NCBI GenBank assembly: GCA_034003725.1
Contig: JAVEYB010000007.1
Location: forward strand, 62,001 to 126,000
DNA: 64,000 nt
DNA from: Candidatus Zixiibacteriota bacterium
GTDB lineage: Bacteria; Zixibacteria; MSB-5A5; GN15; FEB-12
Direction of reading: 5' to 3'
Part shown: in pieces, positions 26,300-29,762 of the stretch
Numbering within the stretch: the stretch's first letter is position 1
Layout: every line of letters starts with the position of its first letter
Translations under genes and position numbers: made by a program
The notes under the pieces: model-generated
Database searches by the model: none
Seen by the model: the letters and a program-made list of their open reading frames with translations, nothing else
Told to the model about the DNA's origin: nothing

Positions 26300-26878
26300 A
26301 TGGCACACCGAATTGTTATAACGGGGGCGCCGGCATCCGGAAAGACCGAGCTGTTTGACCGGTTGTCCGCCGACGACCGCTTCCGGTCGTTCACTTTCCT
26401 CCCCGAACTGGCGCGGCGGCTACTGGTCGAAAACCCCGGTTTCCGGACCGATCGAGAGACCTTTCACCGAGAAATATACCGTCGGCAGGTCGACCGTGAG
26501 GATGCGTTGGGTGGCGGAAGTTTCATAACCGACCGGGGGACAGTCGACGCCTTCGCATTTCACCCTGAGACGGCGGCATTAGTGGGTACTACCATCGAGC
26601 GCGAATTCGCCCGTTACGACGCCGTCGTCCACCTCGGATCGGCCGCCGATCTGGGACCCGGCTACTATCGGACCGATACGGTCCGACTGGAGACAATCGA
26701 TGAAGCGCTTCAGATCGAGCAGGCTATCCAGTCGGTTTGGAAAGCGCATCCGGGTTATGCGTATCTCCCTGCTCACGTCACCTACGAGAAGAAGTACGAG
26801 GAATTTCTGGGGGTAATGCTTGCGCTCGCCGGTATAACCAACGGACTTGACAATCTGAACGCACATTCGTCCGTATAG
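26300..26878 (+). CDS. P-loop AAA_28-type ATP-binding protein (NadR-like kinase fold)
   Basis: A 192-residue nucleotide-binding protein with Walker A GAPASGKTELFDRL at residues 8-21 and a late lid-like region. FLPELARRLL, ITDRGTVDAFAF and the YLPAHVTYEKKYEEFLGVM tail match the AAA_28 group, which is related to the NadR ribosylnicotinamide kinase and to small-molecule kinases. No substrate can be assigned. GGGAG lies only two or three bases before the ATG, an unusually tight spacing. It stands between the HhH gene (divergent) and the M1-like gene. Confidence 0.82.
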   Translation: MAHRIVITGAPASGKTELFDRLSADDRFRSFTFLPELARRLLVENPGFRTDRETFHREIYRRQVDREDALGGGSFITDRGTVDAFAFHPETAALVGTTIEREFARYDAVVHLGSAADLGPGYYRTDTVRLETIDEALQIEQAIQSVWKAHPGYAYLPAHVTYEKKYEEFLGVMLALAGITNGLDNLNAHSSV

Positions 26879-26914: not shown

Positions 26915-29131
26915 ATGAAGAGGGCCGTTTACGGATCGGTTTTATTCGCAGGTCTGCTCGCCCTGGCGGCGGCCGCCCCGGTCTTCGCCGAGTCCGAGTT
27001 TATGAAAGAGTTTAGAGGCAACTACAGTCGTCTCGATCTTGATCTCCTGAATAACCCCTGTGAGATTGCCGACATCGCGAACTTCGTCTACCAGAAGGAC
27101 ATCGCTACCTTCACGTTCACCGAGGGGAAGCTGTTCATGCTTCGCCACGTATTCGATCGTCCCACAACAGCCGTGTTTATCGGCAAGGGGCATGCGACCG
27201 TAGCGCCGCCGGCTATACCGATGGAGCGCGCCAACCTCGCATGGGCTTCAGGAGACACGGCGGTCAACGAGGATTTCGACATTTGCTTCATCCGATTCGG
27301 CGACGACTTCGACCTTGAAGCAAAGAAGTCGGCAACGTTCGATCTCTCTACTCTGGACTTCAAGTACTACACTCAGACGATGCAGTCGCAGGGGGAGTTC
27401 TTCTTCCGCCCGCGCATTTTTCACACGTATGACCATTACTTCCAGTTGCTGCGCTCCTGCCACGAGCGCGGGCCGGAAGGATACTTCTGGATCGACTTCA
27501 ATCGCACCAGTTTTTCGTATGATCCCAACCGCCCCGAACAAACCCAGATCGGTTACGAGAAGTACGGCGGCGATTTTTCGACAGTTGACGCAGTCCTGAT
27601 GCAGCGCAGGGAAAACAATGTCACGACAGATGTCGGTATGTCGCGGGTTCCATATCCCACCACGCTTATTGGCATCGACGCGACTGTCGAAATGGGCGGC
27701 CTAGATGCAAAGAGGATGGAGGGGTGCGAGACCACCGTGCGGGTGCTGGTGAACGCTGATTCGCTTCGGTTCGTTTCGATGTTCCTGAATTACAATCTGA
27801 AGGAAGATTCGATTTACTACAACGGCGCCCCGGTCGACTACTATCGGCGGAAGGACTTCTCGTTTATCGGTGTTATCCTCCCCGAATATGCCTTTGCCGG
27901 CGACACGCTGACATTCACGCTCTGGTATCGCGGGAAAGATTTCCTGCATGCCTTTCCATTTGTCGAAAACCCGGCGCCATCGCCGCACCGACTGCACTTC
28001 CGAGTACCGCGCGACTATACGTACCTCATGCCGGGCAAGGGTCCGACCGGTCGCGACGGCCGATACGACACCTTTTCGGTGGTGACCGACCAGCCGTACT
28101 GGCGCTTCTCCTATCAGGGATATGTATCAGGCTACGAATCTATCCCGTTGACTACCGCCATGGGCATCACTATCGATCTGCTGAAGTCCAAGGCCGTCAA
28201 AAAACAGCAGGAGTGCTTTATTCCCGACGACCAGCTTCGAGCCGCTGTCACCGGGTCATTCGATTTTGCGACCGGCATTTTGGGTCCGCCGCGCGGTACT
28301 TTTGCCCTCACCGTCTTCCCGGACAGCAACCTGTCGATGCCGGGGCTGGTGAATATCCCTCAGTTGTATTGCTATACCGCAGGGATGGGGGGCATTCAGA
28401 TGAAGGCTGCACAACAGATGTCCCGGCAGTGGTTCGGGGCCACGTTGAAACCGTTGTCGGAGCGCGAATACTGGCTGGCCGATGCTGTGCCGGACTATTT
28501 CGGTTTGATGTATGCGCAGAAAGCGGTCGGGCCCGACGCCTTCTATTCCGAACTCGAGGACCGCAGGCGAAAGATCCTGACCGTACGCGACCAGGATGGA
28601 GATCAGCCGCTCGCACTCGGCAACCGTGTGAACCCCGTATTACGTGCGTACAAAGGATCCTGGATGCTGCATATGCTCCGGTTCGCGATGATCGACCTTG
28701 CCACGAGTTCCGAAAACGCCTTCAATCGTTTCCTCGCTGAACTGTCCATGCGCAGCACCATGCAGTCGTTTTCCAACGCCGATGTTATGACGCTGGCCGA
28801 GAAGCACTACGGGCAACCTCTCGACTGGTTCTTCGATCATTGGCTGTTCGATCGCGGGATACCGCAGTACCAGGTTACCTACGCCATCGCGCAGCGCGAC
28901 GATGGCTGGTATGTCAGCGGGGCTGTTGAAACGAAAGACGTGAGTCCGGACTATCGCATGCCGGTCATCATGCGGGTGGAATCCGTCGACCGGCAAAGCA
29001 TCTTTTATCGGCAATCGCTCGCAGCCCCGAGAGATACGTTCGAACTGGGTCCAATGGAGCGGGAACCGAAAGAATTGTTCTTCAACGAATTCTTTTCGGT
29101 TCTGTGCAACGCCAGCGTCAAGAAGCAGTGA
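26915..29131 (+). CDS. Secreted M1-like protein with all zinc-site residues replaced
   Basis: A 738-residue exported protein: signal peptide MKRAVYGSVLFAGLLALAAAAPVFA, a long beta-rich N-terminal region, an M1-aminopeptidase-like helical domain (about 480-660), and a short C-terminal beta domain. The M1 zinc motif HExxH-x18-E is recognisable by alignment, but reads Gln500-Gln501-Met-Ser-Arg504 followed by WFG, with Asp523 at the third ligand position. All three zinc ligands and the catalytic glutamate are therefore changed, so peptidase activity is not expected. Conserved helices such as KGSWMLHMLR and GQPLDWFFDHWLFDRGIPQY remain. It may be a binding or scaffolding pseudopeptidase. A lipoprotein follows 10 bases downstream. 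Confidence 0.85.
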   Translation: MKRAVYGSVLFAGLLALAAAAPVFAESEFMKEFRGNYSRLDLDLLNNPCEIADIANFVYQKDIATFTFTEGKLFMLRHVFDRPTTAVFIGKGHATVAPPAIPMERANLAWASGDTAVNEDFDICFIRFGDDFDLEAKKSATFDLSTLDFKYYTQTMQSQGEFFFRPRIFHTYDHYFQLLRSCHERGPEGYFWIDFNRTSFSYDPNRPEQTQIGYEKYGGDFSTVDAVLMQRRENNVTTDVGMSRVPYPTTLIGIDATVEMGGLDAKRMEGCETTVRVLVNADSLRFVSMFLNYNLKEDSIYYNGAPVDYYRRKDFSFIGVILPEYAFAGDTLTFTLWYRGKDFLHAFPFVENPAPSPHRLHFRVPRDYTYLMPGKGPTGRDGRYDTFSVVTDQPYWRFSYQGYVSGYESIPLTTAMGITIDLLKSKAVKKQQECFIPDDQLRAAVTGSFDFATGILGPPRGTFALTVFPDSNLSMPGLVNIPQLYCYTAGMGGIQMKAAQQMSRQWFGATLKPLSEREYWLADAVPDYFGLMYAQKAVGPDAFYSELEDRRRKILTVRDQDGDQPLALGNRVNPVLRAYKGSWMLHMLRFAMIDLATSSENAFNRFLAELSMRSTMQSFSNADVMTLAEKHYGQPLDWFFDHWLFDRGIPQYQVTYAIAQRDDGWYVSGAVETKDVSPDYRMPVIMRVESVDRQSIFYRQSLAAPRDTFELGPMEREPKELFFNEFFSVLCNASVKKQ

Positions 29132-29141
29132 GAAAAGACAC

Positions 29142-29762
29142 GTGCGGGGAGATCCGGGGACGCGGTGTGGGGCAGGTATCGCCATTGCTCTGTTGGTGGT
29201 GGCAATACTTGCGGCGTGCGATGACCGGATAAAGGACAGCGATACCGGTCAGGCGCCGCTGGTCACACGGTCGTTCCCAATCACTGATGATGCCATGGTG
29301 TCCTCGGCCGTCCCTGGCGGCCACTACGGCGGCGGCCAGCTTCAGGTCTCGACCATCGTGTACAGCGATGGTCTGACCTATATCACTAACACCCTGATCG
29401 GGCTCCCACCATTGCCGGACTCGGTTATGCCCGACCAGATCGTTATTGCCACGTTGGTGCTTCGCTTTGCGGGCGCTGAAGACAGCCTGCCGTTCGCAAT
29501 TGCCGCCCATCGTATTGTACGCGCGTGGATGGAAGACTCCGTCACGTGGTCAAATGCTCCCCCCTTTGATCCAGCCAACCTTTCGGTTGGCCATGTAACC
29601 GGTGGCACGGTGAGCCTGAATGTGCTGGGGGCCTATATCGACCCGCTCGCGTACGGGGTTGCCTTGACCAGTTCCAGTCCTGAGCAGTGGTTTTATTCAA
29701 GCGAGGATCCGCTGCCGGCGCGCCGGCCCGTGTTGGTCGTAACCTATCGTGAGAGCGAATAG
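29142..29762 (+). CDS. Lipoprotein with DNRLRE-like domain
   Basis: A 206-residue protein with an N-terminal lipobox (LLVVAILAAC, lipidated Cys near residue 26). The mature region, with beta strands and the pattern RIVRAWMEDSVTWSNAPPFD and PEQWFYSSEDPLPARRPVLVVTYRE, matches DNRLRE/CBM96-type beta-sandwich domains found in surface and cell-wall-associated proteins. The DNRLRE region normally binds carbohydrate or packs as a stalk; the ligand here is unknown. The GTG at 29142 starts ten bases after the M1-like stop, so the two are probably co-transcribed. Confidence 0.82.
   Translation: MRGDPGTRCGAGIAIALLVVAILAACDDRIKDSDTGQAPLVTRSFPITDDAMVSSAVPGGHYGGGQLQVSTIVYSDGLTYITNTLIGLPPLPDSVMPDQIVIATLVLRFAGAEDSLPFAIAAHRIVRAWMEDSVTWSNAPPFDPANLSVGHVTGGTVSLNVLGAYIDPLAYGVALTSSSPEQWFYSSEDPLPARRPVLVVTYRESE

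Follow-up and report, generated by a model that had tools for sequence, protein, structure and literature searches.

An exported M1-like pseudopeptidase of Candidatus Zixiibacteriota in which conservation favours the N-terminal domain over the former zinc site

By fold and by sequence the 738-residue protein P0001 belongs to the M1 family, but it does not have the residues that make an M1 enzyme and, judged by its sequence, is nearly certainly not an M1-type peptidase. It is encoded at 26915..29131 on the plus strand of the window (the whole stretch of DNA analysed, 64,000 nucleotides), which comes from the phylum Candidatus Zixiibacteriota, the same as candidate division GN15. The missing zinc site of the closest homologues, near-universal retention and low dN/dS all give good support to its placement in a pseudoenzyme family under selection. 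The pattern of conserved residues suggests in addition that constraint has been inverted along the protein, the old active site having been released while the N-terminal domain is now guarded by selection.

Architecture and predicted fold of P0001

The coordinates of the open reading frame, the length of its product and the signal peptide were as the earlier note had them, and identification of P0001 as an exported M1-like pseudopeptidase drew on the reading frame, the M1 fold and the orthologues. The signal peptide was read from the sequence at residues 1-25 (...APVFA/ES; 26915..26989, plus strand, as are all features below), a region across which the aligned orthologue N-termini are hydrophobic and unconserved. 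It is followed by the N-terminal domain (residues 26-215; 26990..27559), which has the highest conservation in the pseudoenzyme family. From the predicted fold the remainder was divided into M1 domain I, a beta domain (residues 216-435; 27560..28219, approximate boundaries), a thermolysin-like pseudo-catalytic domain (residues 436-645; 28220..28849, approximate boundaries), for which the profile also matched Taf2, puromycin-sensitive aminopeptidase (PSA) and ERAP2, and M1 domain III, a beta sandwich (residues 646-738; 28850..29128). Helical domain IV, a feature of large M1 enzymes, is absent from P0001.

The AlphaFold2 model, for which 26 orthologues served as input, had a mean pLDDT of 90.6 and a pTM of 0.88. 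The leading Foldseek matches were all M1 aminopeptidases (IRAP, ERAP1/2) with E values of about 1e-25 (4e-25 to IRAP/ERAP), and the best match in the PDB by VIA-align was PSA (Z 27.1 over 462 residues, rmsd 3.2). Compared with PDB structures, the predicted M1 fold spans residues 170-738, and domain I, the thermolysin-like catalytic domain and domain III are all present. The prediction proposed in the earlier note thus returned an M1 fold. Its statement that the fold and the C-terminal helices remain was borne out for the fold, but the C-terminal part consists of the domain III beta sandwich; the helices at residues 520-643 lie within the catalytic domain.

Homology was also detected at the sequence level, although a profile was needed. 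A profile of the orthologues searched against the PDB matched Taf2 (E 7.4e-6) and PSA (E 7.4e-5), and PF01433 was matched by 8 of 26 orthologues (best 1.6e-6). P0001 alone did not match PF01433 or any other Pfam or NCBIfam entry, and a single-sequence phmmer search of the PDB gave weak matches only, some of them to antibody light chains.

The N-terminal domain (residues 26-215) is an extra domain relative to the M1 body, and the PDB matches barely cover it. Compared alone with the PDB it gave matches too weak for use (Foldseek best E 0.07; VIA best Z 4.4, to LptC), and it had no match in Pfam or NCBIfam. The domain also occurs in active M1 relatives of the phylum, and all frames in which it was found are of M1-like size. 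The signal peptide, together with the cysteines described below, suggests that P0001 is probably periplasmic.

Loss of the zinc site and of other catalytic residues

The former zinc site was placed by aligning P0001 with active relatives, and conservation was counted over P0001 and 29 orthologues (n=30). QQMSR, residues 500-504 (28412..28426), stands in place of HExxH, and D523 (28481..28483) replaces the Glu that serves as third zinc ligand, with 18 residues between the two, the spacing of HExxH-x18-E. The position of the catalytic Tyr is taken by A578 (28646..28648), and that of the GxMEN-type Glu/Gln, found within GEAFPG or GQGFPG in active relatives, by L473 (28331..28333). The earlier note had put the motif on the same residues but understated the loss, which extends to the Tyr and the GxMEN-type Glu.

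All four zinc-site positions are invariant in 35/35 active relatives, among which the catalytic Tyr is kept in 34 and the GxMEN-type Glu/Gln in 31; the latter two residues are gone throughout the pseudoenzyme clade. None of the 30 aligned sequences has His at position 500 or 504. Replacement of all four zinc-site residues, as previously claimed, therefore holds for P0001 but not for every orthologue, with Glu found at position 501 in five of the 30 and at position 523 likewise in five. Position 500 is occupied by N, R, Y, Q, F, K and others, position 504 by R, K, E, N or M, position 523 by D (18 sequences), E, R and others, and position 578 by S, T, V, C, A, L, I or G. The scaffold round the old zinc site (e.g. 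Q505, W506, G508, W520) is still there in the alignment. Sequencing error as the source of the missing site was ruled out by the agreement of the 29 orthologues.

Two cysteines, C434 (28214..28216) and C486 (28370..28372), occur together in 28 of the 30 sequences and are not common to the active relatives. In the two exceptions (L025 and L030), which lie on separate branches of the tree among neighbours that keep both, both cysteines are gone. This joint presence and loss points to a probable, clade-specific C434-C486 disulfide and thus to an oxidising, exported location.

Distribution, phylogeny and selection

With a match to the orthologue profile at E below 1e-60 as the criterion of presence, the pseudoenzyme was found in 52 of the 54 genomes of P0001's taxonomic family, including all 29 high-quality ones; the two genomes without a match are 85% and 69% complete. 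By the same threshold it was found in 0/26 other genomes of the order and 0/78 other genomes of the phylum. Orthologues are 39-78% identical, and the nearest homologues outside the group are ordinary M1 enzymes with HEVAHQWWG...WLSEG.

Trees were built without the motif columns, one of 62 rows and one of 36 rows with a mixture model. P0001-type sequences formed a single clade in both, with bootstrap/SH-aLRT support of 100/100 in the 36-row tree. The search for homologues sharing the loss, which the earlier note had proposed, recovered a pseudoenzyme family: the zinc site is missing from every one of the closest homologues, and active enzymes, which the note had named as contrary evidence should they prove the closest relatives, come next in the tree. 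At its root the clade came out as the sister group of every active subfamily member sampled, a position involving long branches and hence not relied on; the loss itself does not depend on it, because the outgroup has the zinc site. Three more inactive forms were placed elsewhere, among active enzymes, so that this class has lost its zinc site at least four separate times, the bootstrap trees giving four changes.

The pseudoenzyme is under purifying selection, dN/dS being far below 1. Pairwise values among P0001 and its two congeners were 0.09, 0.11 and 0.15, which are rough, as synonymous change is almost saturated (pS 0.63-0.70); for one of these genome pairs the active paralogue gave a similarly rough 0.18. 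A decaying relic gene without function would explain the loss of catalytic residues and nothing more; near-universal retention, intact reading frames and low dN/dS rule it out, and with a negligible probability it is in practice already refuted.

Several other divergent M1-like genes were noted. In P0001's genome and its sister species, tandem M1-like genes (L078, at G000:C5:160000-169000, and L113) consist of a 912-residue copy with an intact zinc site adjoining an 871-residue copy (NLVARQWWG...WLSES) in which both His are gone, possibly an active/inactive pair. L090 (G043; REVARQWWG...SDG) and L108 (G064; TYAARQWFG...ETG) are two more independent zinc-site losses among the active M1 relatives. 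One genus carries a second, divergent copy of the pseudoenzyme (L070, L071), about 33% identical, in which the region of the old zinc site has decayed further.

Constraint on the N-terminal and catalytic domains

Pairwise identity was calculated per domain, each domain having been realigned within each group. Among 23 pseudoenzymes the mean identity was 60% in the N-terminal domain and 48% in the catalytic domain, whereas in three active groups it was 31-36% and 54-59%, respectively. The N-terminal/catalytic identity ratio averaged 1.26 (0.90-1.64) in the pseudoenzymes and 0.52-0.66 (0.39-0.79) in the active groups, with zero overlap between the two, and column entropy agreed with this result. 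The comparison sets orthologues (the pseudoenzymes) against mixed paralogues (the active sets), such that the per-pair ratio controls for overall divergence and not for paralogue-specific changes. The N-terminal domain is thus the best-conserved part of the pseudoenzymes, whereas the former zinc residues vary freely, so the function under conservation most likely resides in that domain and not in the old pocket.

Comparison with known M1 proteins

Like P0001, Taf2, a subunit of TFIID (PDB 6hqa), keeps the M1 fold without the zinc motif; its motif region reads VAEQWSG where enzymes have HExxHQW.G. It was the top PDB sequence match by profile, which implies no closer kinship. Taf2 is a scaffold of the eukaryotic nucleus and has domain IV (D1-D4, PMC6220335), whereas P0001 is bacterial and exported, carries the extra N-terminal domain and is without domain IV. 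The yeast M1-family protein Tma108 also represents an apparent non-enzymatic role of the fold (PMC11266112). Only one active-site residue is missing from Tma108, and its pocket is thought to be used for nascent-chain binding (PMC11266112), while P0001 has lost every one of these residues and its pocket shows relaxed conservation. The nearest relatives outside the clade are active exported Zixiibacteriota M1 enzymes (e.g. L079, L081, L094), which have P0001's domain order, N-terminal domain included. They keep HEVAHQWWG...WLSEG, the Tyr and the GE/GQ.FPG motif, and their conservation pattern is the reverse of that in the P0001 clade.

The M1 pseudopeptidases that we found described, Taf2 and Tma108, are eukaryotic, whereas the P0001 lineage is bacterial; no description of a bacterial M1 pseudopeptidase was found in the literature searched, which took in few subscription papers. 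The kind of protein is thus already known, but as far as that literature shows, an old, near-universal, exported bacterial lineage with inverted constraint is undescribed. With its many sequenced relatives, active sisters that share its architecture and a clear constraint shift, the lineage is a good natural case in which to ask how enzymes turn into binding proteins, and the shift singles out the N-terminal domain as the first for testing.

Possible functions of P0001

We lean towards P0001 being an exported, non-enzymatic binding or scaffold protein that works through its N-terminal domain. Zinc binding and catalysis were lost once, in the stem lineage of one Candidatus Zixiibacteriota family, as the tree shows, and the protein was then kept as a core gene, as its retention shows. 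The M1 body, with its probable clade-specific disulfide, may present the constrained N-terminal domain to an envelope partner, and the relaxed conservation of the old active-site cleft suggests that it would no longer be the functional centre. More tentatively, the N-terminal domain may be a new envelope interaction module, kept across the family after a wholesale shift of constraint from the dead active site. Its conservation could instead come from packing within the fold or an oligomer. Of the selected binding function that had been proposed from the zinc-site loss, selection is upheld (52/54 genomes, dN/dS 0.09-0.15); binding is an inference, and the drift of the pocket residues and the stronger constraint on the N-terminal domain speak against binding in the old pocket.

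A pseudoenzyme that still binds peptides in the old cleft, in the way proposed for Tma108 and nascent chains (PMC11266112), would account for the conserved cleft scaffold (Q505, W506, G508, W520, K580 and the HMLR helix). It is nevertheless unlikely, since positions 500, 501, 504, 523 and 578 of the cleft drift through many residues each, the Glu that binds the peptide N-terminus is gone, and conservation of the catalytic domain is relaxed relative to the active relatives. P0001 might otherwise pair with an active M1 paralogue of its own cell, as a subunit with a regulatory or structural role, in the manner of the alpha and beta subunits of M16B processing peptidases (PMC11266112); the genome does encode active M1 enzymes, and a tandem active/inactive M1 pair elsewhere. 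We consider this improbable, as no active M1 gene lies beside the P0001-type gene at any locus examined and the inactive tandem copy is a separate, independent loss in the tree. There is a slim chance that P0001 is still an enzyme, with a new catalytic or metal site in place of the M1 site. The many invariant polar residues (H170, D173, R185, D194, H586), which include some in the N-terminal domain, and a fold of that domain unrecognised in the PDB comparison would fit such a site, but no known catalytic motif was found and the domain is unmatched in Pfam and NCBIfam.

Genomic neighbourhood

A gene for a 192-residue P-loop NTPase (AAA_28; Pfam E 9.5e-17) at 26300..26878, by synteny a conserved neighbour, ends 36 bases upstream of the P0001 gene on the same strand. 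By single-sequence search at E below 1e-10, which may leave remoter relatives elsewhere, this gene was found in 44 of the 54 family genomes and in 0/75 others. It lies directly upstream of the pseudoenzyme gene in 42 of the 44, lies elsewhere in one, and has its position hidden by a contig end in one. Searched by sequence, the NTPase had no match in the PDB. The wider region is often syntenic as well (a creatinase/prolidase-like gene, a probable HflX GTPase and a response regulator, names read from sequence), so adjacency is modest evidence of a relationship; confinement of both genes to the same bacterial family is stronger. Eight genomes, five of them from one genus, have the pseudoenzyme with no detected NTPase, which therefore is not an obligate partner. 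Because the NTPase has no evident signal peptide, co-expression of the co-inherited pair in one pathway would be favoured over direct contact.

Immediately downstream, at 29142-29762, lies the gene for a predicted lipoprotein of 206 residues whose CBM96/DNRLRE-like similarity is weak and falls below cut-off (E 0.0043). It was dropped as a candidate partner, because outside the genus it is not the pseudoenzyme's neighbour.

One genus, g21 (L010, L011, L013, L014, L021), combines Glu at the third-ligand position (TEA) with an upstream NTPase gene that is mostly absent.
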